NCBI GenBank assembly: GCA_000733355.1
Contig: JNVV01000004.1
Span: forward strand, 1,892,355 to 1,956,354
Direction of reading: 5' to 3'
DNA: 64,000 nt
Source of the DNA: Falciphora oryzae
Taxonomy: Eukaryota > Ascomycota > Sordariomycetes > Magnaporthales > Magnaporthaceae
Positions 3,189-53,229 of this stretch are shown piece after piece; positions within the stretch are counted from its first letter, which is position 1; each line of letters begins with the position of its first letter. The position numbers were made by a program, and so were the translations under genes. The notes under the pieces are model-generated. The model was not told the DNA's origin and did not search any database. It saw only the letters and a program-made list of their open reading frames with translations.

Positions 3189-3832
3189 AAGCCCAGAGCC
3201 TTTCGGCACACACAAAACCCCGAGCCTCTGGGCACGCACAAAGCCCAGAGCCTTTCGGCACACACAAAACCCCGAGCCTCTGGGCACGCACAAAGCCCAG
3301 AGCCTTTCGGCACACACAAAACCCCGAGCCTCTGGGCACGCACAAAGCCCAGAGCCTTTCGGCACACACAAAACCCCGAGCCTCTGGGCACGCACAAAGC
3401 CCAGAGCCTTTCGGCACACACAAAACCCCGAGCCTCTGGGCACGCACAAAGCCCAGAGCCTTTCGGCACACACAAAACCCCGAGCCTCTGGGCACGCACA
3501 AAGCCCAGAGCCTTTCGGCACACACAAAACCCCGAGCCTCTGGGCACGCACAAAGCCCAGAGCCTTTCGGCACACACAAAACCCCGAGCCTCTGGGCACG
3601 CACAAAGCCCAGAGCCTTTCGGCACACACAAAACCCCGAGCCTCTGGGCACGCACAAAGCCCAGAGCCTTTCGGCACACACAAAACCCCGAGCCTCTGGG
3701 CACGCACAAAGCCCAGAGCCTTTCGGCACACACAAAACCCCGAGCCTCTGGGCACGCACAAAGCCCAGAGCCTTTCGGCACACACAAAACCCCGAGCCTC
3801 TGGGCACGCACAAAGCCCAGAGCCTTTCGGCA
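3189..3832. repeat. 51-bp minisatellite, about 12.6 visible copies
   Basis: Near-identical head-to-tail 51-bp units continue directly from the N gap. Each unit is itself two related halves (25 and 26 bp), each containing a GAGCCT core and ending in GGCAC followed by ACAC or GCAC, so the 51-mer is a dimeric higher-order repeat. Because 51 is a multiple of three and the unit lacks stops in most frames, long false open frames run through it on both strands. No coding function is claimed. Confidence 0.92.
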
Positions 3833-4023
3833 CGCCAATGGCCGTTTTCGAGATCCTCGCGATCACCCCGGCACGCATAAGACTTTGAGCCTCTGGGCAC
3901 GCATAAGAGCCCCAGAGCCTCCGATACGCCAATGGCCGTTTTCGAGATCCCCGCGATCACCCCGGCCGATACCCGATCACGAGGATATAAGCCGTGCATG
4001 CGTATAAAAGAAAAAGTTGCCAG
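3833..4023. repeat. Degenerate repeat edge with a duplicated 40-bp segment
   Basis: After the last clean 51-bp unit, diverged half-units alternate with a roughly 40-bp segment (core GGCCGTTTTCGAGATCC) present at about 3839 and again about 95 bp later. This looks like the mutating edge of the tandem array. No gene is seen. Confidence 0.6.
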
Positions 4024-37338: not shown

Positions 37339-39072
37339 CTACGCCATAACAGCCGACCTAATCGCATTGACGCACCTCCACACGTCCTCGAACGTGTTGT
37401 ACATGGGCACCGGCGCCACGCGGATCACGTTGGGCTTCCGCTTGTCAAGCACAACTCCCGCCTCGCCCAGCTTCTCCACGACCGTGTCGAGCAGGCCCTC
37501 GCGCAACAGCACGCTCAGCTGCGCCCCGCGCTCCTCCTTGTTGGCCGGCGTGATGATGCGGAACGCGGACTCCCGCTTCTCCGTCTGCGCCCGACCCTCG
37601 TCCGCCACGACCTGGAGCAGCAGGTGCTCGGCGTACGCCGTCATGCGCAGCGACTTTGCGCGCAGCTCGGCCATGCTGGTGCGGCCAAAGACGGACAGGG
37701 CGCCGCCGAGGGCGGCGAGGTCGATGGCGCTGGGGTTGGACACGATCCAGCCCTGCGCGCCGGGCGTCGGGACGAACTCCTTGGCCATGTCGAAGCGCAC
37801 GCTCTTGTCGCCACCGTACCAGCCCGCCAGCCTGGGGTAGTACTGGGCCTGCCCGCCCTGGTCCTGGAGGCGGACGACCTCGCCGTGGCGGCGGTGCACA
37901 AAGGCGCCCGCGATGGCGCCCGGGCCGGCGTTGAGGTACTTGTAGGTGCACCAGACGGCAAAATCTACGCCCCAGTCGTGCAGCTGCAGCGGCACGTTGC
38001 CGGCCGCGTGCGCCAGGTCCCAGCCCACCACGATGCCCTTGGCGCGGGCGTGGGCTGTGATGCGCGCCATGTCGAAGAGCTGGCCGCTCCAGTACTGGAT
38101 GCCGGGCAGGAGAAGCAGGGCGGTGCTTTCGGCGTGCTCGTCGATGGTGCTCAGGATCTTCTCCGTCGAGATGTAGAAGTTCTCGTCCGGATGCAGCTCC
38201 ACCAGCGACTTTGTTGGGTCCAGGCCATGCCATTGGATCTGGGAAGCGATGGCGTACTGTTTTGCGGTTCTGTCAACACATTTTTGCTTTTCCAGGTGTG
38301 GCTAGGCGATGTGGAACAAGGAGGCAACGAGAACATACAGTGTCGCTGGGAAACGGCTTCCACTCAGCAATGATCTTGTGCCTCGTCGCCGTCGGCCGGT
38401 AGAAGCTTGCCATCATAAAGTGCAAGTTCGCCGTCAGCGTGTTCATGATGGCGACCTCGTCGGGACCCGCAGCACCGACTATGGGCACCGACTTGGCCGC
38501 GAGGTCGGCGGCCATGTCCTGCCAGCTGCCGCCCAGCGGCGAGTTGTCCAGCGCCGTGAAGTGGCCGTGCACGCCGACTGAGGCCCACGTCTCCAGCTGC
38601 GCGTTCAGGTGCTCCCGCACCGCCTTGGGCTGCAGCCCCAGCGAGTTGCCGCAGAAGTACACTGCGGGGTTGGTCTCGTCAGAGCTGGAGCCGGCTGCTG
38701 CCGCCGCGCTCCCTGTCGTCCCATTCTCCTGGGCCGGCTGCTGCGAAGACGGAGACTTGTGGTTTGGTGGGTAAGCTGTACGCCGAAACGCACACGGGGG
38801 GTGTTAGTCTATGCACACACGGCTGCAAGCGGACAAATCGAGTGGGCCGGCAGTTGGGATGGATATCAAGACACGCCACATCCGGATCGAGGCGAGTCGG
38901 TCCACTCACCAGGAATCTTGCCATCCAGCGCCTTCTTCTTCAGCGAGGCGACGGTGGGGAAGATGAAATGCTCCCGCAGGTGCCGCAAAGGATCCTGGGC
39001 GTCCTGCGAACGAGCGTATTCTAGCGTGCTCGCATTGGCAGGAAACTCGATGGGGTCCGAACTCGCAGGCAT
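37339..39072 (-). CDS. BNA5: Kynureninase
   Basis: PLP enzyme that cleaves 3-hydroxykynurenine (or kynurenine) to 3-hydroxyanthranilate (or anthranilate) and alanine in the cytosolic kynurenine/NAD pathway. Exons 39072-38910, 38775-38339 and 38256-37339 give 505 aa. Introns are 134 and 82 nt (GTGAGT..TACAG, GTATGT..ACAG). Family sequence is clear: EFPANASTLEYARSQDAQDP at the N-terminus, VYFCGNSLGLQPKAV, FPSDTYAIASQIQWHGLDP across the second junction, GWDLAHAAGNVPLQLHDWGV and the PLP-lysine region AVWCTYKYLNAGPG (Lys near residue 306). An Ala/Ser/Gly-rich insert before VYFCGNS, about residues 64-85, is longer than I expect for the family. It diverges from the IDO gene, the first pathway step, across about 1.1 kb. 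Confidence 0.96.
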
Positions 39073-40147
39073 GATCTCTGACTGACACAATGATCGATAG
39101 ATGAGACGGAAGTCAAGGGATGACGTGTAGGAGTGGGTAGTCCACCGTTGAGTGGGCAGGGGGCGGCGGAGGGAGGAGGCGGGTGGTAGGCTTGTCAGTA
39201 TAAAGTTGGTGGCTTTTCCTGTTTCTGTTCCACTTAGTCAAGCGGATCTGGCGTGTTCCCTCTCCGGTTGTGCACCTCTCTCTTTGGCTCTTGTCAGTTC
39301 GTCTAGGCCGAGTGAGGACGGCCGAACACACTTTGTAGACAGCGTTGCTGGCACGCAGTCTCTCGGCCTTCGCTCTCGGCGCGAGCAGCGGCTGGAGCGA
39401 TTCAGGGCTGCATGGCGGCTGCTACATTACCCCACGCGCTTCTCCGATGCCGCAGCGCGGGCGTCGCCGCGTTCCTACGTGTTCCAGGCCGCGCGAACGT
39501 CGTAGATGCTGACGCAGCAGCGAACAATTCCATGGGAGCTCCATGGATGACAGCCAACGGCACGCAATTGACCCACCACGTGAGCATTCCGCACCGGCCG
39601 CCCCCAGCCGCCGCTAGCCGAATTTCGCGATGGCCAACAGTGGATTCCACCAACCTCGTGTGCAAGGCCGACCTGGGTTCCTGCTCTTTCCAAGCGAAGC
39701 ATGCCTGCTAGCGCCGGAAGAAATAGGCACAGGATGGGTCATATGAGGCGATTACCGACGGTATCTTAGAGTACTTGATGTTTTGTCTCCATTTCGGTCC
39801 ATTTCTATGACAAATTGTCCACCTCACCGCTCGTATTCTGGCCGACCTCGGGATTTCGAGAGCTTTGGAGTTGCTGGTGGCAGGGTCAGGGGCCATGGCG
39901 CGACCGAGACGGTGTTTCCTTAAGGTGTCTTCGAGAGTCCTGGTCTGGCGAACTGGACGATGTGCCAGAGCATCGTGCCTTCCACTGTCTTCCACTGTCA
40001 GACTTGCTGTTTCCCGCTCTGTCCGAACCTTGTTGGCGGCGGAGTTAGCGCAAACCTTGAGTCGAATCTGAAATCCGTTCCATTCAACCGTCCGTCTTAG
40101 CTTGTCTTGCTGGGCCTTTGGCTCGTCTTTTCCTCCCCTGCTCCGCT
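39073..40147. promoter_or_regulatory. Shared divergent promoter region of kynureninase and IDO
   Basis: A 1075-bp spacer between the two start codons, with no gene of its own. The shared region could allow co-regulation of the two pathway enzymes. No specific operator could be assigned by eye. Confidence 0.5.
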
Positions 40148-41689
40148 ATGTCACCCCATGAAAAGACCCCCAAACAGCAACATGCTGCGCCTGAAGACCT
40201 CCTTGGCACGACCTTCTCTGTCACTAAAAATGGCTTCCTCCCGGCCCAGGCTCCGCTAGCACGCATACCGGATCCATACTACGAGCCATGGGAGACTCTG
40301 GCTAGGGACCTCCCCAGACTCCTGCGGGAAGGCAAACTGAGAAGCGCCGTCGAGGATCTGCCCATCCTCGACTGCTCTCGGCTCGGCCCGGAGCCCGAGT
40401 GGAGAAGGGCGTACATCATCTTGACTTTCTTCACGCACGCCTATGTCTGGGGTGGCGAGACTCCATCGGAACGCCTGCCGCCCCAGGTTGCAGTCCCCGT
40501 TTTGGCTGTGTCGAACCACCTTGATCTGCCCCCGGCTGTGACCTACGCAGCTGCGAATTTGTGGAACTTCCGCACTACCAGCCCCACGGAAGATGCCACT
40601 TCGTTCAGCGACCTGGAGTCGCTCGACTGCCTGCTCAGCTTCACCGGAACCCCCGACGAGTCGTGGTTCTACATGATCAGCGTGGCCATGGAGTGCGAGG
40701 GCGGCGAGATCATCCCGACCATGCTTTCCGCCATGGAGCGCATCTTGCCTCCGGGCGCCAACGGCACCGCCGAGTACGCCACCGTGACGGCCGCCATGGA
40801 GCAGCTCATGGCCTGCATCCGCCGCGTCGGCCGCGTCCTGGACCGCATGCACGAGCGCTGCGAGCCTGACGTCTTCTACCACGCCATCCGTCCCTTCCTT
40901 GCCGGCAGCAAAAACATGCAGGCCGCTGGCCTGCCGCGCGGTGTCTTCTACGAGCGCGGCGGGGGCGAGGGCGAGTGGCTGCGGCTCAGGGGCGGGAGCA
41001 ACGGGCAGTCGTCGCTGATCCAGTTCTTCGACGTTGTTTTGGGCGTCGAGCACACCGCGACTGAGAACCAGAACTCTGGTGCCGCCGGAAGTCGGCCCGT
41101 GTCGCCGGCTCTCCCCAAGACCAAGCAGCAGGGTCCTGTCGAGGAGGAGCCCGAGCTCCCCTTCCACGAGGAGGTGCGCGCTTACATGCCCGGCCCTCAC
41201 CGGCGGTTCCTCGCGCACGTCCGCGCCCTGCCCAGCATCCGCCGCTTTGCCCTCGAGCCGTTCAGCGCTTCCGACGACCCTCTATCGGCAGAGAAGCTGC
41301 TGCTCTGGGAGACGTTTGAGCGCGCCACCAAGGTCCTAGCCGAGTTCCGCAACAAGCACCTGCAGATTGTCACGCGGTACATCGTCGTGCCCTCCCGCAA
41401 GCACCAGCAGAACCAGCAGAAAGGGTCCATCGGTCTCGCCGGCGTTGGAACCAGCATCTGGCGCGAACCGCCGCAGAACCCCGTCGCCATGCCCAAGGAC
41501 GTTGGTCATGACACTGGAGGCTCGCTCGATGGCAAGGATGCAGGAGCTGCCAAGAGCGACGCTCGCGGTCGTCGCGTGTCGGAGACACAGCTCACCGGCA
41601 CCGGAGGCACTGCCCTGATGCCGTTTTTGAAGCAGGTCCGGGACGAGACCCTTCGTGCTGGCCGACCGGACTCGGCCCAGCTCGGCTAG
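40148..41689 (+). CDS. BNA2: Indoleamine 2,3-dioxygenase
   Basis: Haem dioxygenase opening the indole ring of tryptophan to N-formylkynurenine, the first step towards NAD. A single-exon 513-aa protein, ATG at 40148 (CTATGTCACC). Family marks: GFLPAQAPLARIPDPYYEPW at the N-terminus, AYVWGGETPSERLPPQVAVP, ESWFYMISVAMECEGGE, FYHAIRPFLAGSKN, GRSS-type loop as GGSNGQSSLIQFFDVVLGVEH, YMPGPHRRFLAHV, and the proximal haem ligand in EFRNKHLQIVTRYIV (His404). A low-complexity insert lies between the loop and YMPGPH, and a hydrophilic tail follows residue about 430, both typical of fungal enzymes. Divergent from kynureninase, it forms a small tryptophan-catabolism locus. Confidence 0.97.
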   Translation: MSPHEKTPKQQHAAPEDLLGTTFSVTKNGFLPAQAPLARIPDPYYEPWETLARDLPRLLREGKLRSAVEDLPILDCSRLGPEPEWRRAYIILTFFTHAYVWGGETPSERLPPQVAVPVLAVSNHLDLPPAVTYAAANLWNFRTTSPTEDATSFSDLESLDCLLSFTGTPDESWFYMISVAMECEGGEIIPTMLSAMERILPPGANGTAEYATVTAAMEQLMACIRRVGRVLDRMHERCEPDVFYHAIRPFLAGSKNMQAAGLPRGVFYERGGGEGEWLRLRGGSNGQSSLIQFFDVVLGVEHTATENQNSGAAGSRPVSPALPKTKQQGPVEEEPELPFHEEVRAYMPGPHRRFLAHVRALPSIRRFALEPFSASDDPLSAEKLLLWETFERATKVLAEFRNKHLQIVTRYIVVPSRKHQQNQQKGSIGLAGVGTSIWREPPQNPVAMPKDVGHDTGGSLDGKDAGAAKSDARGRRVSETQLTGTGGTALMPFLKQVRDETLRAGRPDSAQLG

Positions 41690-41893
41690 GTTACCTCGCA
41701 CCGGCTAGATTTCGTATCTATGTCATGTGTTTTTGTTACTCTTTTTCCTTTCATTGGGAGGCAACAGCGCTAGCCGTCGCCCTCTTCCATTTCTATTTCT
41801 TTTCCGTCTTCTGCATTTTCCTCGTCACCAGCATAAGCATAGCGTTTGGGAAACTGGGCAGGTCCGTGGAGATTGTTCGTTCTGGCCGCACAT

Positions 41894-41907
41894 ACCTCAG
41901 GAGTCCT
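41894..41907. repeat. Candidate attachment-type direct repeat, left copy 1
   Basis: ACCTCAGGAGTCCT, within a 71-bp unit repeated twice in tandem (both units begin CCGTGGAGATTGT at about 41866 and 41937). It differs at one base from the other two copies. Confidence 0.5.
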
Positions 41908-41969
41908 TTGTTTCATGTAACGTTGAGAATGTCGTCCGTGGAGATTGTCTTGGCTTCGCGGCCGGGCAT

Positions 41970-41983
41970 ACCTCAGGAGTTCT
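41970..41983. repeat. Candidate attachment-type direct repeat, left copy 2
   Basis: ACCTCAGGAGTTCT, identical over 14 bp to the right-hand copy 4.3 kb away, in the same orientation. Downstream bases GTGTAGAATAGTATC resemble GTGTCACAATAGATC after the right copy. Confidence 0.5.
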
Positions 41984-42001
41984 TGGTTTTTGTGTAGAAT
42001 A

Positions 42002-42643
42002 GTATCCGTGCTTTCGTACTTGTTGGTCACCCGGAGGATAAAACGGAGGCCCACACCTTCGGTCGACATTTTCATTAACTTTTTGCTCGCGCTGGGCCCG
42101 GCCTGGGTCGACCACGAGTACTAGAAGGAACTTGGTGGCCGCAAAGTGGGCGGGGTAGCCAAACCCATCCCCGACTTTCTTGACCGTGTGGCTGTCACAT
42201 GGCCCAGGATTCGCCTTGTGATGGGTTGGATGCAGGATTACGAGGCATACTACCGCGACCGCCCCTGGGTTCGCATGATTGGCGTGCCAGAGTCTTGGGC
42301 TGTACATAACCCGTTTATGCGAGACGCTCTGCAGGGTGACAGTGAATCAGCCGACCTGTACCCTCAGGAGTGGAAATTCCACGACCTGTCGGACTTGGGT
42401 GACGCCGTCAAGAAGGATAAGGCCCAGCCTCAGGGGAACACGTACGAGGAAGATCTCCGTCAGCACAAGGAGACGGTGGGTGAAATGGTCGGAAACGACG
42501 ACATGGACTAGGACGGGGAAGATCAGGGTCCCCCCACGCCCCTGAACAAGCGCCCTCGTCCCCTGTCAGGCAGCGACCTGAGTGCGCATGCGGCGAAGCG
42601 CCGCAGGCAGAGCAAGCAAGAGAATGCGGGCAAGAAGAATTGA
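42002..42643 (+). pseudogene. ORF of unknown function in the recombinase element
   Basis: One frame runs from about 42002 to the TGA at 42641, broken by TAG at 42122 and 42509. No ATG opens it, so the 5' end is missing or in another exon; TTTTTGTGTAG at 41986-41996 could be a splice acceptor. Protein-like stretches include GPAWVDHEY, KPIPDFLDRVAVTWPRI and RMIGVPESWAVHNPFM. The C-terminus is strongly basic with two clusters (NKRPRP and AAKRRRQSKQ), a likely bipartite nuclear localisation signal. Composition and decay match the recombinase gene downstream, so it may be a second element protein. No family recognised. Confidence 0.5.
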
Positions 42644-42689
42644 GGGTCGGTAAACACAAGGAGAAGGACATGACCGGAATCTTGGGGGC

Positions 42690-42727
42690 TTTTAACCTAT
42701 AGGCGCCGTTTTCGCCATAGGTTAAAA
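42690..42727. repeat. Hairpin-forming inverted repeat
   Basis: Arms TTTTAACCTATAGGCG and CGCCATAGGTTAAAA flank a short loop of a few T and C bases, one bulged base in the stem. It lies 47 bp after the stop of the first element ORF. It could be a transcript 3'-end structure or part of a recombination site. Confidence 0.7.
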
Positions 42728-43112
42728 TTCTAGTGGTTGTTACGGTTTGGTCTGTTTCCAGGGAGTACATTGTTGGAAAATTGAATCTTTGTTGGAGTTA
42801 AAAAGTCGTCGCCGGGATATTGGAATGGAATCTCGCCGGAGGAGGTTTTCCCCAGATTACCCCGACCAGATGGCGGCGGGGTCGAGGTGGGTTTGAAGCA
42901 ATCGAGGTGGGGCCGTGGCGACTTGGCGGGACACCGGCTCTGCACGCCCCACAGAGGCCCAGCCCTAGATAGTTTGCCTAATCACGAATTTCTGCCATTC
43001 CCCCAGGGTGCGGCTTTTCCTGCTGCCTGCATCCTGGGGGTCGAGATCCCACTCCACCTTGTGTGTTCGTCCGATCTCGACGATCTCGTTTCGGTCGACA
43101 ACGGAGGTCGAG

Positions 43113-45926
43113 ATGGCGCCCCCAGCTGCTAGTGCCACTCCCGGCACAAGGAGCGCACGGCAGTCGTCCCGCCTCGCTCAGGCTTCCCCTGCCTTGCAAA
43201 GCTCCCCTGGCAAGAAACGGAATCCGTCCCATTTCGACAAAGAGCCGTTCAACCCAGATACTGGTACAATTTGCGCGGCCCAGGCATGCCGGCCCCCTCT
43301 CGCGCCTTAGCCCTGCTCAGCATCCCCATTCGCTGAGACGACGGCGGAATTCTTCGCCTCTTTCAGGAGGGCTGGCGAGGAGGCGCCCACCACTCCGGCT
43401 CCTTTACCCGACGGGCATCATGCCAGCCCAGGATGTAAGTTGTATAGCCATTTATTTTCCCACACATTTTATAAACATCAATCAACTGTGGAAACAGCAG
43501 CCACTACGTCTGATCCAACATCGGCCTCCCCAGACACCTAGAGCTCTGTCCCGGGAGAGATCATCGGCACACCCGAGACCGTGTACTCGAACGAGGCCGG
43601 ATCTGGCGACGGCGGCTTTGACGATGAGAGCGACTGGGAGGACGAGGACGAGGACGACATCGACGACGGCGCATCTGACGCCTCCCGGGGCTCAGTGTCC
43701 TACCAGGACGGAGACGACATTTTGGAGTCGGAAAATCTCCAGCAGCTTCCAATCGACAAACCATGTGGCGGAAAAGTCGCCGGACGTATCCTGCTTTTTT
43801 TCGTGCGAGACTCCCAGGAGAACCCTGCCATTCCGCTCGACTCGTTCAGTCTGATTCACATTGACCAGTTATGGGTTCTCATTCATTTGGTTAATTACAT
43901 CGCTAGGCCAGTGGATTACACCGACGTTGTCATATTGGCGGAATCGGTGTCAAGCGCTCAGAACCCAGCAACCCAGCGAACAGCTATCCGAGCCATTTTG
44001 TCGATGTAGCATGTCGACATCGTGGTTAGGTCTCTGGACCGGCTGACCCGTCGTGCCGGGGAGCTCGATGACATCCTCGACGGTTTGGCTCAACGCGATT
44101 CACGTGTTTTCGCCTTGGGTCTAAGCTCGCGGACCCGCGACAATCCCTGGCCCTCCTATCTGATGTCCCCCGGGATATTCTCAAGTCGACACTTTACGAT
44201 GGTACGTGTTATTTATAATTTAAACCCTATGGTGTATTGTTCTTTTTCCACGCCTATAGGGTTCAAATCGGTTCGTTTTATTCCATGCACCATTCTCACT
44301 AACTTTATACTTAGATGAATGCTGCAAAGTATGGAGTCGTGCCCAGAGGATGCGGCTGTTGAGGACACGGATGCTGGCGGCTGGTCCCGATTTCCCTCAG
44401 GTGCAACGGCTTCGCACACTCGTTGCATCTGCCACCAAGGGCTACTCTCATATCGTCACTTTGGCTCGGACTTCCCCGCCTCGCGGCAGCCCTGAATCCC
44501 AGGCGTCGAGAACCGTATCAAACAACAAGTTGACTTCCTGTCCCTCCTTGCACCGGACGGACCAGTTCAGCACGTTGTTTTAGAGGGTGTGTCGGCCTTC
44601 AACACCAACGGCCAGACCGTGGCAAGCAGCATAAACAACCACCTGGTCACCAAACATGGTGACAGGATCATCATTCTGGTCTCTTCACTAAACCGATTGG
44701 TGCGTTCGACCAACGCTTTGAACGACATTGCGACATTTTGCAAGCAGCGACAGGTAACCATAGCCGTGCTTGCGATGTTCGACGGGGCGCATCTCTCGAA
44801 TAACGCATCGGAAGCCCTTCATTTGGACGATGCCGCAAGCTCCGACCTTTGGCGAAACGCGGTTTGCGCCCAAGAGTGTGTCCCCAATTCGGACAGGCCG
44901 GTGGTACAACCGCACTTGGTGCTTCATATCGGCAGGTGTGGCACGATCACATCTAACCCCTTTCGTCCCCGCGAACTCGAAGCATCCTTCGCAGGCTCTC
45001 TCGTCCACCTTGCAGAAGGTGGCAAATTGCCAATGTTTCAGAACCTTCGGCGCACGATCGCAATACCGACAATGAAGGGGCCCGTTACACGGGACCTTAT
45101 TCGGGACATTCTCGGTATCCGCCCATCGATATCTGTCCACCACGGCCGTACCGCCGTCTCGTGTCCTTGCTTAGAGCAAGCACATGATGACAGCTGTACT
45201 TGCGCCTGTATGGATTGTCGAGCCCGGCCTGTTTGTCGAAAAGAACCGAGCGACAAAGGAGTGCCTAGACATCCAGGCTTAATCGCCAACTGCCTTTTTG
45301 GCAAAGCCTGCCCGACCTGCGATGAGGAGCACACCGCCAAAACCAAGCTTTGCAAAGGCTGCTACAACGCATCACGCCCCAGGGCGTGTCCCGACTGCGG
45401 TGGGATGCACCGCAGTCGCACCCAGCGTTGCTATGCGTGTTACACGAAGTCACGCCCTATGTCCTGCATTGACTGCGGTCGGACACACTACGACAGTCGC
45501 CGTCACTGTCCTAGCTGTCGGTGGAAAAGGAGCATCAGAGTTTGCCGGGGTTGCAGAAGGACGCACCGCCGATCCACAATCCTTTGCGGTCGCTGCCACA
45601 AGAAACCACTTAAAACCTGCCCTGAGTGCCTCACGACGCACCGTGGTCAGTGCCGTCTCTGCGAACCCTGCCGCAAGAAACTCGGCCCAAAGGCGTGTCC
45701 GACCTGCCTAACAGCCCACAAAAGACGTGCCGATCTTTGCCGTTCCTGCTACCTGGAGGCAAACCCTAGGATTTGCCCAAAGTGCCAAAAGCTGAACAAG
45801 ACCGAGAACAGGTTCTGCAACCGCAGGTACAAGGAACGACGTCCAAGGAAGTGCTCGGGCTGCCACAGAATGCACAAAGGAACTAGTCTCTTTTGTTGGC
45901 GTTGCTACAAGCGGCCGAGGGAGTAG
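43113..45926 (+). pseudogene. Tandem serine recombinase with zinc-repeat array (broken)
   Basis: Proposed exons: 43113-43263, 43321-43434, 43498-44201, 44315-45926. Introns have GTACAA..CTCAG, GTAAGT..ACAG and GTACGT..CTAAC..TTAG. An acidic N-terminal region leads to catalytic domain 1: FFVRDSQE supplies the Arg and catalytic Ser of the R-x-S motif, EDxxS-like ESVSS follows, then RTAIRAIL and VDIVVRSLDRLTRRAGELDD, the DRLxR signature of resolvase/invertase recombinases. A linker (YDDECCKVWSRAQRMRL) leads to domain 2: VTLARTSPPRGS, NRIKQQVDFLSLLAP, LEGVSAF, and RIIILVSSLNRLVRS (Asp to Asn). The C-terminal third is a zinc-repeat array. TAG stops at 43539 and 44007 and frameshifts near 44120 and 44503 break it. 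The third intron only joins in frame after the first shift, which supports a once-intact gene. Confidence 0.68.
45306..45923 (+). other. Eight-copy C2-H-C2 zinc-binding repeat array
   Basis: Eight consecutive repeats of about 25-26 residues fit C-x2-C-x3-H-x6-C-x2-C followed by a basic spacer, often (Y/R)..RPR. Examples are CPTCDEEHTAKTKLCKGC, CPDCGGMHRSRTQRCYAC and CSGCHRMHKGTSLFCWRC. Repeat 5 has an extra Cys, and repeat 7 lost its His (Asn) and last Cys (Arg). Each unit could bind one zinc. The array is in the place where large serine recombinases carry a single zinc-ribbon DNA-binding domain. The basic spacers suggest nucleic-acid binding. Confidence 0.85.
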
Positions 45927-46298
45927 CTGGATATGAGAAATGAAGTTTTGTAGCCAGTGTCAATCAAATCGTCGAGGCACAACGGGGGTGAGGTTGGAGG
46001 GTTGGAGGTTGCTTTTTACCAATATTTTAGTCCATTTTGGCACCATGTCATATAGCGAGGCACAACGGACATGTGGCCCGACCCTAGCACCATTCTATTA
46101 GCGCTCTAGCTGCATTGCTTTCAAATCACTATCGCTATTTCAGATTTTAAGCCTATAAGCACAATATCCGTCGGCTCCCACAAAACCATTCCACCCCTCC
46201 GGAAGGTCCATTGTACTCGAAGTGAGTGGGCGATATAACGAGCCCCTCAAACAGGCGAGGGCTGTTCAATCTTGGTGGTCAGCTCGACAGCTAGACAC

Positions 46299-46312
46299 AC
46301 CTCAGGAGTTCT
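46299..46312. repeat. Candidate attachment-type direct repeat, right copy
   Basis: ACCTCAGGAGTTCT, matching 41970-41983 exactly and in the same orientation, 373 bp after the recombinase stop codon. Confidence 0.5.
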
Positions 46313-47328
46313 CATCCGGTGTCACAATAGATCAACTTCGTCTCGCAATCCTCATCGCACGAGCGTAACGGGCATAACCTTTGGCCGCTGGTGTCTTGGA
46401 GAAAACGATGCTCACGAGGTCTCTAGCTTGCTCGATCCTCTTGCGAGGCTGTTACAGGGCCTCCTTGGAGCCGTCTTGGTACCGGATGCAGTCTCTTCTC
46501 CTTCATGGTGGCGGGTTTTGAGCCAGAAGATGCAAGGGCAGGTCCATTATCCTCGCAAACCTGACTGACTTGGCCCTACACGTAAGACCATAAAAAGAAT
46601 AGCATGCTAAAGCGAGCACATACGGCATACCCACGGGGATATACGGGATCTCGTCCGCTTTCGCCTCGTTAAACCAATAAGGGCTACTTGAGGAGCCGCT
46701 CGTCGCGGCCGCATTCTTCGCTGCCAACACCAAAGCAGGCGAGATGGCCATCGCTCAGGGAGCATTGGCAGAGCGTTGGGAGTGTTGTCGACCATTCGAG
46801 TGTTGTCGTTAGGATTCCCTGAATATGCGACCAAAGGACTTTTGCCTGGTATGCGCAGCCTGCCGTACATATCAGAAACTTTCCAAGAAAAAAAGTGCCT
46901 GACGTCTGTTGGCCCAAAACATCCGTTTGCTTATCGGAAGGAATGACCTCGGATGTTCGCCCCGCTACCATACTTTATTTTCCCAGCTCCTCCCTCTCCA
47001 ATGCTACCTTCCATTTTGGAAAACCAACTACAGCTGAACAATCCAAGTCAGCGCGGGGAATCCCTGCATACCGTCCAACCTACAGCCAAGTTGGGGTTAA
47101 CCTACTGTTTTACCCATGATAGGGTGTGTCTGGCCCTTGGTTGAACTGATTGTGCGCCCCGCCGGTTCGGGTCGGAACCATCCTTATCTGTCCAGAGATC
47201 GAAGCCCTTGCGGAAACGTTGCATTTTGGGGCAGCACGTTGGCTTCTCGATAAAGTTCAAAATGTCCACCTCGGTCGGGTGAAGCTTGGGCTGGCCATTA
47301 CGGTCATGTAATCCCAACAGCCTCTACC
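46313..47328. other. Intergenic with a possible coding relic
   Basis: Promoter side of the OPT gene. On the minus strand between about 46500 and 46960 protein-like pieces occur in different frames (for example YIPVGMPYVLALACYSFYGL). They vaguely resemble the last helices of an MFS permease, but too little is left to name them. Confidence 0.35.
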
Positions 47329-49887
47329 ATGGACCCAGAACAGGTTCAGGCTGCCCCGAAGCAGCTACAAGTGAATTGCCGGGAGGGGAAGTCGGTTGGG
47401 AACGGCGACGATGACGTCGATAAATCACTCGAGAAGGTCGACGAGATCGCCATGGCGCTGCAGGCTGACGAGCCCAAGACGGTAGCCGAGGTCAGCAAGG
47501 AGATGGCCGATACGTCGCCGTACCAAGAGGTGCGGGCCGCCGTGCGCGAGATCGACGGCCAAGAGTACAGCAACACGCTGCGCGCCTGGATCATCGGTCT
47601 CATTTTCGTTACCGGCGTTTCTGCCGTCAACATGTTTCTCTCCATGCGCAGCCCCGCCATCACCATCCCGGCCGTCGTCGTCATCCTCGTCACCTACCCC
47701 GTCGGCACGCTGTGGGCAAAGGTCGTCCCGGCGCGCAAGTTTACCACCTTCGGCCTGGAGTGGAGCCTGAACCCGGGCCCGTTCAGCATCAAGGAGCACG
47801 CCGTCATCACGCTCATGGCCAAGATCACGGCCGACTACCCCTACTCGACCAACGCCCTCGAGGCCCTGCAGGCGCCGTCGCTGTACAACCGCAGCCTTGG
47901 CTGGGGCTTCGCGCTGGTCTTCACCCTCAGCAGCCAGCTGATCGGCGTCTCCATGTCGGGCATGTTCCGGCGCTTCCTGGTCTGGCCGTCGGCCATGGTG
48001 TGGCCCGGGCAGTTCGCCACCACCTCGCTGCTGTACACGCTGCACGACAAGCGCAAGGCGGGCGAGATCGCCGAGGAGGACTGCGTTGCTGGCGGCGACA
48101 GCACGTGGAAGATGTCGCCCTATCGCTGGTTCTGCTACATCGGCCTGGCGTCTTTTGCCTACTACTGGCTGCCCGGCGTCCTCTGGCAGGGCCTCTCCGT
48201 GTTCGCCTTCGCTACTTGGATCAAGCCCAACGACGTCGTGGTAAACCAGCTGTTCGGCGGCTTCACGGGGCTGTCGCTGATCCCCATCACGTTTGACTGG
48301 ACATATGTCGCGGCGTATCTGCAGAACCCTCTCCTATCTCCCTGGACCTCGCACCTGAACTGCCTCGTTGGGCTGGGCATCTTCATCATCATTCCGACCA
48401 TTGGAATCTCGTACACTGGGGCTCTGTTTTCCGACTACCTCCCCATCAACACCTCTCGGACGTTTGATAACACGGGTCACCGCTATGGTGTCGCGAGGAT
48501 CCTCAAGCCCGACTTCACGCTCGACGAAGACGCCTACCGCAAATACTCACCTCTGTTCCTCGCCCCGACCTTCTTCCTCAACTACGGCCTGTCCTTTGCG
48601 ACGCTGATGGCCTCGCTCGTGCACACGGTCCTCAACCACCACAGCGAGATCTGGTACCGCTTCAAGGCATCCCGGAACCAGGAGGCCGACGTCCACATGG
48701 CCATGATGAGCAAGTACAAGGAAGCCCCTGACTGGTGGTACGGCCTCGTATGGATGGGCGCCATGGCCTTTGGGCTGGCCACGGTCCTGGGCTTCCCCAC
48801 CCAGCTGCCCTGGTGGGGGTTTCTCGTCTCGTGCCTCATCGCCTTCGTTTTCATCATCCCGCTGAGCATGATATTCGGCATGACCAACATCCTCATCTCG
48901 CTGAACGTGCTCTCGCCGTTTCTCGGCGGCTTTATCTTTCCTGGCCGCCCGATCGCCAACATGCTGTTCAAGGTGTACAGCACTATTGTGCTCGGCCAGG
49001 CCCAGGTGTTTAGCGGAGACCTCAAGTTTGCGCTCTACATGAAGGTCCCTCCACGCACGACGTTCTCCAGCCAAATCGTCGCGGTTATCTGGTCGTGCTT
49101 TGTCCAGATTTCAGTTATGGTATGTATCATTCTCGCCATCCAATACCATCACGTCTTCCTGCACTCCTCCGAGCTGTAAGTGCCTGACTCTGAACAATTC
49201 TTGGTGGTACCAGAACTGGGCATTTGGCAACATCCCAGGTATCTGCAGGCCAGACCAGCCGAGCAACTTCACCTGCCCCAACGGCAGCACATTCTTCTCA
49301 TCTAGTATAGTCTGGGGTGTTATCGGCCCGCAGAAGTTCCTCGGCGTGGGCACCATGTACGAAAAGATCCACTTCTTCTGGCTCCTGGGCGCTCTCCTCC
49401 CCGTCGCCTTCTACCTCGCGGCACGCAGGTTCCCCAACTCTGTGGCAAGCCACTTGCACGCGCCAGTAATGTTGGGCGCCATGGGCTGGCTCCCGCCCGC
49501 GACGCCGCTCAACTTTTCGACCTGGGCGGTCGTTGGCCTGGTGTTCAACTGGTGGATCCGGAGACGCTGGATGGCCTGGTGGCAAAAGTTCAACTACATC
49601 ACCGCCGCCGGTCTGGATGTCGGACTTGTCATCTGCACGCTGGTCATCTTTTTCGCCTTCACGCTGCCGGGGACGCCGCTACCGCAGTGGTGGGGGAATG
49701 TCGATGTCTTTGAAACCGAGGTAAGCCCTCATCTCCTTGTTGTGTATCACCCGTCCTCTCTCGCTCTATCCGTGATCTCTCGATGCGGAGTGTCCAGGTA
49801 GTAACTGGTTTTTCACAGGACGCTCTCGGCACGGCTATTCGAAAGACTGTGCCCAAAGGCGAGACGTTCGGGCCTTCAGTCTGGTAG
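47329..49887 (+). CDS. Oligopeptide transporter (OPT family)
   Basis: Proton-coupled tetra/pentapeptide or glutathione-type transporter of the plasma membrane. Exons 47329-49119, 49214-49720 and 49819-49887, all phase 0, give 788 aa. Introns are 94 and 98 nt (GTATGT..ACCAG, GTAAGC..CACAG). The start context is TACCATGG. A hydrophilic N-terminus of about 80 residues is followed by about 14 membrane segments. Family signatures: NPGPFSIKEH (from residue 148), WPSAMVWPGQFATTSLLYTL, SHLNCLVGLG, KYKEAPDWWY, LSPFLGGFIFPGRPIANMLF, YMKVPPRTTF and YEKIHFFWLLGALLPVAFYL. The last short exon codes the hydrophilic end (DALGTAIRKTVPKGETFGPS). Relatives move small peptides for nitrogen and sulfur nutrition. 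Confidence 0.96.
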
Positions 49888-50086
49888 AGGGCTATGCGCT
49901 TGTGGAAGGGGTTGTCTTCCAATGTATCGGGGGCCAGGTCCTTGGCTGCGCCGAGCTGAAGGCAGAGCTGAAGCCTTGGCCGCGCTTGTTGTGTTCCCCT
50001 TTCTAGATGAACAGCCCGCCTTCGCCAAAACGCAGCAGATCCATGGCATCTCGAAATCAATCAATGATAACAATAGCGTGCCCTAG

Positions 50087-52366: not shown

Positions 52367-53229
52367 ACGTGGTTCACCACCGAGTGACGCACCCTCACCG
52401 AGTGACGCACTCCAAATCCCATACTAAACGGCGTTTTTTTCGATTAAATAACTCGCTCAATTTGAGGCTAAACTCCACCAAAATTAAAACAGTTATATTT
52501 AACTTTATAATAATTGTAATTTGAATTTTCCGCATTTTTATTATTACTCCTTTTGGGTTAATTGCGTATTGTACACAGTGTATTACACTGTGTTGCGAAC
52601 TAACCCAAAAGGAGTAATAATAAAAATGCGGAAAATTCAAATTACAATTATTATAAAGTTAAATATAACTGTTTTAATTTTGGTGGAGTTTAGCCTCAAA
52701 TTGAGCGAGTTATTTAATCGAAAAAAACGCCGTTTAGTATGGGATTTGGAGTGCGTCACTCGGTGAGGGTGCGTCACTCGGTGGTGANNNNNNNNNNNNN
52801 NNNNNNNNTCACCACCGAGTGACGCACCCTCACCGAGTGACGCACTCCAAATCCCATACTAAACGGCGTTTTTTTCGATTAAATAACTCGCTCAATTTGG
52901 GGCTAAACTCCACCAAAATTAAAGCAGTTATATTTAACTTTATAATAATTGTAATTTGAATTTTCCGCATTTTTATTATTACTCCTTTTGGGTTAGTTCG
53001 CAACACAGTGTAATACACTGTGTACAATACGCAATTAACCCAAAAGGAGTAATAATAAAAATGCGGAAAATTCAAATTACAATTATTATAAAGTTAAATA
53101 TAACTGTTTTAATTTTGGTGGAGTTTAGCCCCAAATTGAGCGAGTTATTTAATCGAAAAAAACGCCGTTTAGTATGGGATTTGGAGTGCGTCACTCGGTG
53201 AGGGTGCGTCACTCGGTGGTGAACCACGT
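52367..53229. mobile_element. Palindromic AT-rich MITE, two inverted copies around a gap
   Basis: Two 414-bp near-perfect palindromes (52374-52787 and 52809-53222) are separated by 21 N. Each has long complementary arms around an asymmetric centre of about 45 bp (CACAGTGTATTACACTGTG). The centre of the second copy is the reverse complement of the first. The outer ends extend to ACGTGGTTCACC and GGTGAACCACGT and are flanked by TA on both sides (52365-52366, 53230-53231). TA target sites and ACGT-beginning inverted repeats with inner CACCGAGTGACGCAC repeats fit a non-autonomous Tc1/mariner (pogo/Fot1-like) element. The 81-codon frames seen on both strands are a by-product of the palindrome. No transposase is present. 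Confidence 0.75.
52788..52808. other. Assembly gap (21 N) at the palindrome centre
   Basis: A short N run exactly between the two inverted MITE copies. The outer ACGT ends are missing on the gap side of both copies. This suggests that two contigs ending in the same palindromic repeat were joined here. Confidence 0.9.

Follow-up and report, generated by a model that had tools for sequence, protein, structure and literature searches.

A broken Falciphora oryzae gene with two tandem serine-recombinase-like domains and a zinc-ribbon array, possibly from a new type of fungal jumping gene

The stretch of DNA analyzed here (the window) comprises 64,000 nucleotides of a Falciphora oryzae contig; the host genome scanned was 50 Mb. 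On the plus strand, positions 43113–45926 are occupied by a broken gene for two serine-recombinase-like domains in tandem, followed by a zinc-ribbon array (Table 1). This copy was designated locus C4. The motifs cited in the original prediction (FVRDS, DRLTR, LARTSP, NRLVR, and the eight-unit zinc array) were all located in the window, and their positions were checked. The gene is interrupted by TAG codons at 43539 and 44007, and also at 43308 between two compensating indels; the frame changes near 43257, 43325, 44150, and 44497.

Table 1. Features of the locus, in window coordinates
Feature	Position	Strand	Remarks
17-bp repeat CATACCTCAGGAGTCCT, left outer	41891–41907	+	
17-bp repeat CATACCTCAGGAGTTCT, left inner; candidate left boundary/attachment site	41967–41983	+	16/17 identical to 46296–46312
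C-terminal relic of SNF2-helicase gene	42005–42562	+	In-frame TAGs at 42122 and 42509; 35% amino-acid identity to C45 SNF2 tail
Block with DNA similarity to C45:125k copy (5' leader, gene, 3' flank)	42966–46110	+	Ends approximate
N-terminal Ser/Pro/Arg-rich coding stretch	43113–43434	+	Frame-shifted near 43257 and 43325, with TAG at 43308 between
Candidate intron, GTAAGT...ACAG	43435–43497	+	Canonical signals; outside stretch covered by P0003/P0004
In-frame TAG stop	43539–43541	+	TAA at same place in C45 copy
Serine-recombinase-like domain 1	43779–44150	+	Limits approximate; PF00239 match, shuffle control, motifs
In-frame TAG inside domain 1	44007–44009	+	TAG in C2:638k, TAA in C45, TGG in C2:1927k copy
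End of exon VPRDILKSTLYD before supported intron	44165–44201	+	Matches first residues of P0003 (MPRDSLKSKLH)
Intron, 113 nt, GTACGT...CACTAAC...TTAG	44202–44314	+	P0003 continuous across junction
Linker and start of domain 2 (LARTSP; catalytic-type Arg 44467, Ser 44473)	44315–44493	+	51–57% identical to P0003
Rest of serine-recombinase-like domain 2 (KQQVDFL, EGVSAF, NRLVR 44691–44705, Asn at 44691)	44496–44950	+	Frame shift ~44497; right limit approximate
Middle region conserved in relatives (RPVVQPH, RTIA, VTRDL) and Cys-rich stretch	44951–45302	+	
Array of eight C-x2-C-x3-H-x6-C-x2-C zinc-ribbon units	45303–45923	+	Pfam DZR E 3.7e-9, 7 stretches
Stop codon TAG, gene end	45924–45926	+	
3' flank motif GGACATGTGGCCC(G/A)AC(C/A)CT(A/G)GC(A/T)CCAT	46067–46093	+	Common to window and C45 copy
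17-bp repeat CACACCTCAGGAGTTCT, right; candidate right boundary/attachment site	46296–46312	+	

Pieces of the gene were found at seven loci on four contigs of the same genome, and several were truncated. Both domains occur in the same order at three of these loci: the window, C2:638k, and C45:125k (the C45 copy). P0003 and P0004, relatives found in other samples, are unbroken and 43–47% identical to the window sequence. The original prediction had looked to intact homologs for one continuous frame; these relatives confirm domain 2 and the zinc array and, in the case of P0003, also the linker and one intron. No intact gene carrying both domains was seen, so the fused two-domain protein was deduced from broken copies. 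Among the introns originally proposed, that at 44202–44314 is supported, as P0003 reads across it; the one at ~43257–43330 is doubtful because the C45 copy aligns there as coding DNA with small indels. Translated searches of viral_contigs, prokaryote genome_contigs, and phage records returned no relative. A phage or viral origin was rejected: 14 phage records matched only at E-values of 2 or worse, over query residues 259–446 (mostly the Cys-rich tail).

Domain 1 features FVRDS at 43800–43814 (IERDS in the C2:1927k copy), the Q of IDQLW, ESVSS, an Arg at 43977–43979, and DRLTR at 44037–44051. The Arg, situated between the VS element and DRLxR, is kept in all four copies in which it can be read; the eight bacterial and phage enzymes compared all have RP there. 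The (D/E)-R-L-x-R signature is also present in four of four copies, with D in two and E in two (in the C45 copy, after a frame change). The D is not to be taken as invariant, since phiC31 reads VSRFSR at that place. For domain 2, the R-x-S motif is ARTSP in the window, P0003, and P0004, and both relatives retain R-T-S, Q, and D-R-L-x-R (IDRLVR/IDRLFR). The original prediction had set an Asp in domain 1 against an Asn in domain 2. The Asn is present in the window, but it is peculiar to this copy rather than a family trait, because Asp occupies that place in P0003, in P0004, and in the C45:47.9k copy. Between VS and DRLxR of domain 2, no Arg is conserved across the window, P0003, and P0004; thus domain 1, which alone keeps this residue, is the more canonical of the two. 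The hhalign match between the profiles of the two domains was weak (probability 4.5%, E 0.0091, 32 columns) and does not establish an internal duplication as their source. The eight zinc units span 45309–45905; in unit 7, which is degenerate, N replaces H and CNRR replaces the last CxxC. Their number varies, from eight in the window to five in P0003 and four in P0004.

Protein-level constraint was detected in domain 1 (pN/pS 0.38–0.39) and in domain 2 with the tail (pN/pS 0.32–0.60), with all intervals below 1. In one alternative, there are two genes and no fusion: domain 1 on the one hand, and domain 2 with the zinc array on the other, would each have its own transcript or would depend on recoding, and the recombinase proper would be limited to the second of these parts. 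Codon 44007–44009 is a stop in three of the four copies in which it is readable (TAG in the window, TAG in C2:638k, TAA in C45), as this alternative would have it; however, the C2:1927k copy has TGG there, and the sequence downstream of the shared stop is constrained (window versus C2, 45 codons, pN/pS 0.38). RIP was rejected as the cause of the decay; the indices of the window copy (TpA/ApT, 0.63; the other index, 1.13) are without a RIP signature, and the shared stops are therefore not explained by strong RIP. The frame change near 44150, located between domain 1 and the linker, and the fact that P0003 and P0004 begin at or past the linker also favor separate genes. Yet the start of P0003 falls in the exon stretch that precedes the intron at 44202–44314, and the P0003 Met could simply be the first ATG left in a truncated ORF. 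Further, at three loci domain 2 follows domain 1 closely and in the same orientation. Separate genes were judged unlikely.

Similarity to the C45 copy sets in abruptly near 42966, its left edge being ~150 bp upstream of the start codon, and fades beyond ~46110. The 3' flank motif, derived from these two copies, had no third match with three or fewer mismatches (reversed-pattern control, 0). Farther out, the pair of 17-bp repeats at 41967–41983 and 46296–46312 was equaled in none of 60 flank shuffles. Elsewhere in the 50-Mb genome, the pattern CAYACCTCAGGAGTYCT, derived from the three 17-bp sites, is never matched with fewer than 2 mismatches; 11 further matches have 2 each. Only the window locus showed these repeats; around the C45 copy, no direct repeat scored better than shuffles. 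The right flank at 46237–46278 was rejected as an element end; its 42-bp, 88% partner at C45 resembles, by eye, the 3' end of a host gene. A second alternative is a duplicated and decayed host gene family (e.g. a DNA-binding regulator with recombinase-derived domains) instead of a mobile element; it would account for the low copy number, the lack of an inverted repeat pair in 39000–50000, and the lack of a proven target duplication. It is nonetheless improbable, given that a single genome carries the gene or pieces of it at seven loci across four contigs, several of them truncated, and given the sharp similarity edge ahead of the start codon, and the domain-2 catalytic residues kept in the relatives.

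An SNF2 relic lies ~400 bp upstream on the same strand at both loci with a detectable 5' part of the gene (the window and C45). The helicase upstream of the C45 copy matches PF00271 (E 2.7e-10), with PF00176 below cut-off. With the window as reference, SNF2 similarity amounts to 109 bits for C45 and 43–56 bits for five others; with C45 as reference, the window is not clearly the nearest (109 vs. 88–109 bits, at differing lengths). No recombinase was detectable beside the five other SNF2 copies in the downstream stretches covered (~3–8 kb), and synonymous divergence between window and C45 is greater in the SNF2 tails (dS 1.66) than in domain 1 (dS 0.67). Both observations speak against one co-inherited unit. 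SNF2 as an integral gene of the element has support at these two loci and is, overall, a weakly supported proposal.

The catalytic assignment was examined with the Pfam Resolvase model PF00239 (curated cut-off, 23.3 bits). Scores were 20.3 bits for domain 1, 19.4 for domain 2 (22.0 in the genome scan), 18.9 for P0003, and 13.7 for P0004; because all fall below the cut-off, the domains are termed serine-recombinase-like, i.e. a divergent relative. For domain 1, positions 44010–44199 alone gave E 0.0056, and 43734–44202 with the TAG read as Q gave E 6.5e-4. Domain 2 matched independently and without overlap (E 1.2e-3). P0003 also matched (E 0.0017), and P0004 did so weakly (E 0.066). PF07508, the other profile named in the original prediction, was not matched: this and the recombinase zinc-ribbon Pfam models yielded nothing for P0002 (E ≤ 1) or for P0003 and P0004 (E ≤ 10). 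When the 50-Mb genome was scanned in six frames with PF00239, the sole match at E ≤ 1 was domain 2 of the window locus (22 bits); this is a test of specificity and not of sensitivity, since domain 1 and the other copies were not picked up. A search of the protein collection with domain 1 returned nothing. In a shuffle control using a profile built from eight bacterial and phage enzymes and 2000 shuffles per query, domain 1 (stop as X) outscored 2000 of 2000 and domain 2 1999; with the first 190 residues, P0004 outscored 1999 and P0003 1964, such that P0003 alone is unexceptional (36/2000 as good). Two AlphaFold runs (mean pLDDT 45 and 50) were too uncertain for use, and a Foldseek search gave no significant match (E 1.3 for gamma-delta resolvase 1gdt, ranked 22nd). 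A large ORF of the window, looked up in the PDB, likewise had no match there. Although sub-threshold scores, low-confidence models, and the P0003 shuffles would suit convergent motifs in domains unrelated to serine recombinases, this is very improbable, as two non-overlapping stretches and two relatives match one profile and show R-x-S, Q, and DRLxR in their proper sequence, and the family was proposed from sequence before any search.

In Mu Gin, one of the small serine recombinases (resolvase/invertase), R-x-S, Q, the SG/VS element, Arg, and DRLxR follow the same order as here. Gin has 193 residues and one catalytic domain, whereas the window gene is fungal, contains an intron, and has two such domains, a ~55-residue linker, and a zinc array. 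In the large serine recombinases, or phage integrases (phiC31, TP901-1, Bxb1), the catalytic domain comes first and zinc-ribbon DNA binding lies towards the C-terminus. The window family shares this order but differs in its two catalytic domains and its four to eight ribbons. Membership of the phage integrases was rejected for want of matching domains, the sole PHROGs integrase match of P0002 being at E 0.56.

In the excerpts consulted, the serine-recombinase transposons of eukaryotes and their viruses are IS607-like, including the Fanzor2 elements (PMC3627910, PMC6188088), and IS607 TnpA is described there as an N-terminal DNA-binding domain with one catalytic domain, usually with a TnpB partner (PMC4058570, PMC6188088). 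Compared with IS607 as so described, the window family would likewise represent eukaryotic serine-recombinase elements, but its candidate DNA-binding part is C-terminal and its catalytic domains number two. IS607 membership was rejected, as there was no N-terminal MerR-like domain and no TnpB/Fanzor match among the 17 window proteins scanned. Starship captains and Cryptons are also fungal mobile elements with a transposase of the site-specific-recombinase type, but these are tyrosine recombinases; Pfam scans of the window proteins, P0003, and P0004 gave no tyrosine-recombinase or DUF3435 match (Starship/Crypton type). The excerpt of a 2017 review states that serine transposases (IS607-like) might possess eukaryotic homologs and goes no further (PMC5718144). 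Among the titles and abstracts listed by literature searches, none describes a tandem serine recombinase combined with zinc repeats. The original prediction of a decayed serine-recombinase element family with no published description is supported by the sub-threshold PF00239 matches of the two domains, by the two relatives with continuous frames, and by the repeated copies in the same genome.

The window gene probably represents a fungal mobile element with several copies, this one being inactive. The recombinase of the element would be a single long protein that carries two catalytic domains of the serine-recombinase type and a C-terminal zinc-ribbon array. More tentatively, the family could be a transposon class of eukaryotic origin. 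Its serine recombinase would be a covalent pseudo-dimer of two catalytic domains, with an expandable zinc-ribbon array for recognizing the element ends. An SNF2 remodeller may travel with it, and it may rely on regulated readthrough of the stop at the fixed domain-1 codon.

In the proposed mechanism, the zinc array would bind a specific sequence at the element ends. The two linked domains would act as a built-in pair, such that two chains would supply the four active sites needed for a serine-recombinase synaptic complex. Judging from the residues present, domain 1 is catalytically complete and probably cuts; domain 2, with the nucleophile motif and DRLxR but without the third Arg, may cut or may mainly assemble the complex. 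Cleavage would form 5' phosphoserine links, and the DNA would travel as a circle; terminal inverted repeats would be absent, and a short direct repeat might remain at each side, for which the 17-bp repeats are candidates. The upstream SNF2-type helicase might be a second element gene that opens chromatin at the donor or target, although the case for it is weak.

The family may represent a new kind of fungal jumping gene. If so, the mobile elements of fungi would gain serine chemistry in a new layout, through a family that has a tandem serine recombinase of its own. Such a family would raise the question of whether a single chain bearing two active domains can stand in for the dimer, and it might yield integrases with expandable zinc arrays.

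Kinship of both domains with serine recombinases is well supported. The resolvase similarity suspected in the original prediction was borne out, all Pfam Resolvase (PF00239) scores of the two domains lying below the Pfam cut-off: E was 6.5e-4 for the whole of domain 1 with its single stop read as Q, 0.0056 for its second half alone, and 0.0012 for domain 2. The remaining Pfam matches of the domain-2 protein were zinc ribbons. A custom profile was built from eight bacterial and phage enzymes and tested against 2000 shuffles per sequence; domain 1 exceeded all 2000 and domain 2 exceeded 1999. For two unbroken protein relatives from other samples, the first 190 residues exceeded 1999 (P0004) and 1964 (P0003). 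When the genome was searched in six frames with PF00239, the single match at E<=1 was domain 2 of the window locus, with domain 1 and the other family copies absent at that threshold; the same search gave matches in 10 of 14 control genomes. PHROGs yielded one integrase match (E 0.56), NCBIfam no match of integrase or recombinase type, and a PDB sequence search with P0003 weak matches only, all within its Cys-rich second half. The mean pLDDT values of two AlphaFold predictions (45 and 50) were too low for a fold claim, and most of the zinc array lay at about 70-86. Foldseek ranked mainly zinc-finger proteins on top; gamma-delta resolvase was placed 22nd (E 1.3, not significant).

All motifs of the original prediction were found where it had placed them. 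Domain 1 features FVRDS, a Q (IDQLW), ESVSS, an Arg in ATQRTAI, and LDRLTR. The Arg that precedes DRLxR sits in RP in all eight bacterial and phage enzymes compared, and the domain-1 Arg is preserved in the four copies readable there. Domain 2 has R-T-S, Q and VS, plus DRLVR or DRLFR in relatives; no conserved Arg was found at the place preceding DRLxR in the window, P0003 or P0004. The roles ascribed here to these residues are those generally known for the serine-recombinase family. Because domain 1 has every motif including the Arg, and domain 2 lacks a conserved Arg, the catalytic residue set looks, from sequence, complete in domain 1 and nearly so in domain 2. The Asp of domain 1 and the Asn of window domain 2 (SLNRLVR) were correctly read. 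The Asn is peculiar to the window copy and not a family trait, since P0003 and P0004 follow ARTSP ... Q ... (S/C)IDRL(V/F)R and another same-genome copy (C45:47.9k) reads SSIDRLVRST.

Of the proposed introns, one was upheld by protein comparison. At the exon junction P0003 reads PRDSLKSKLHTDADLLIFSRAQM; the window reads PRDILKSTLYD, then GTACGT...CACTAAC...TTAG, then DECCKVWSRAQRM, a comparison that supports the intron 44202-44314. At about 43257-43330, the alignment to the same-genome copy at C45:125.8k (the C45 copy) is that of coding DNA interrupted by small indels, and therefore an intron there is unnecessary. The gene is decayed, as had been proposed, with three stops and four frame changes.

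Features of the locus and its immediate flanks (window coordinates)
Feature	Position	Strand	Remarks
Indoleamine 2,3-dioxygenase	40061-41689		flanks locus
SNF2 helicase tail	42005-42562	recombinase-gene strand	upstream of gene
Frame changes	near 43257, 43325, 44150, 44497		
Stop TAG	43308		flanked by two compensating indels
Candidate intron	43435-43497		canonical signals
Stop TAG	43539		lesion; TAA in C45 copy
Stop TAG	44007-44009		lesion in domain 1
Intron	44202-44314		GTACGT...CACTAAC...TTAG; P0003 comparison
OPT transporter	47254-49179		flanks locus

The domain-1 codon at 44007 can be read in four diverged copies and is a stop in three of them (TAG in the window and C2:638k, TAA in the C45 copy, TGG in C2:1927k). 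Parallel TGG-to-stop changes, as RIP makes, are the plain explanation; the copies measured had no overall RIP signature. Regulated readthrough, or a separate domain-1 product, is possible, and the sequence 3' of the stop is constrained between the window and C2.

Two relatives were found among 5.77 billion proteins: P0003 (466 aa, 2942-base contig, E 1.1e-90) and P0004 (412 aa, 1829-base contig). One protein search scored just the 8000 candidates with most shared words. The two are 64% identical (61% by BLAST) and share the ending SRKKT; P0003 carries the linker. Both run without stops across domain 2, the middle region and the zinc array (5 and 4 units, respectively). A domain-1 query of the protein collection returned 250 candidates, none at E<=10. 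Searches of viral contigs, prokaryote genomes and phage records yielded no relative.

The genome comprises 50.2 Mb in 123 contigs, and the window is the final 64 kb of contig C4; its genes appear fungal. The window also contains a tandem array of a 52-bp unit (3189-3833; 12.4 copies, 100% matches) and, in an AT-richer stretch, a 435-bp direct tandem duplication (52374-53222; 95% matches). Family pieces occur at at least seven loci, copy counts being lower bounds: C4 (window), C2:638k, C2:1927k, C6:1458k, C45:47.9k, C45:115.9k and C45:125.8k. All seven are broken or partial. A weak domain-1 match with one TAG (C7:45164-45370, E 0.013) is a possible eighth. Domains 1 and 2 share order and strand at C4, C2:638k and C45:125.8k; at C6 (fetched stretch L020, 2690-4650) two zinc-array pieces face opposite ways within a 2-kb stretch. 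Between the window and other copies, Nei-Gojobori pN/pS was 0.39 over 63 codons of domain 1 and 0.38 over the 45 codons of its second half, with three pieces from domain 2 and the tail at 0.32-0.60; every bootstrap interval stayed below 1, and the values are rough because synonymous sites were saturated or nearly so in several comparisons. Rough as they are, these ratios show the proteins to have been under constraint during divergence of the copies.

DNA similarity between the window and the C45 copy starts sharply near 42966 and fades past ~46110. A 27-base 3' flank motif derived from these two copies had no third match in the genome. The repeat CAYACCTCAGGAGTYCT, derived from sites 41891, 41967 and 46296, had no other genomic match with fewer than 2 mismatches and 11 with 2 (reversed control, 12 matches). 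A direct repeat as good as that of the window flanks arose in 0/60 shuffles; the C45 flanks had none above shuffles (21/60 equally good). The repeat is a candidate element boundary, since it was found at the window locus only and the C45 flanks were no better than shuffles.

At the C45 copy, a larger SNF2 relic lies ~400 bp before the recombinase block; it matches PF00271 (E 2.7e-10) and, below cut-off, PF00176 (E 0.0015), and a Walker A motif can be made out by eye. That the C45 tail is far the closest to the window tail (109 bits; five other copies, 43-56 bits) speaks for co-inheritance of SNF2 and recombinase. Against it speak the higher dS between window and C45 for the SNF2 tails (1.66, compared with 0.67 for domain 1) and the absence of a recombinase from the stretches examined around the five other SNF2 copies. 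The recombinase gene's 5' part was detected at no locus besides the window and C45, and at C2:638k an ORF judged WD-repeat-like by eye occupies that place instead. The SNF2-helicase repeat family has at least seven members including the window relic, two of them upstream of a recombinase (fetched stretches L027 751-3999, L046-L050). Its C30 and C35 copies are ~92% identical. Inspection by eye recognized other transposons within or next to the repeated unit, of Harbinger-like type in C35 and of pogo-like type in C30.

Among the top-ranked titles and abstract openings listed, whose scope excludes most subscription papers and Repbase, none described a fungal element of this architecture or one with serine recombinases in tandem. 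Comparison with IS607 was drawn from PMC3627910, PMC6188088, PMC4058570, PMC5718144, PMC6431247 and PMC10799480; according to PMC5718144, serine transposases might have eukaryotic homologues.

The locus belongs to a real, worn and unusual fungal repeat family that unites two serine-recombinase-like domains with a zinc array. One protein chain with both domains would act as a recombinase, its activity predicted and the element ends putative, and the family is likely mobile.
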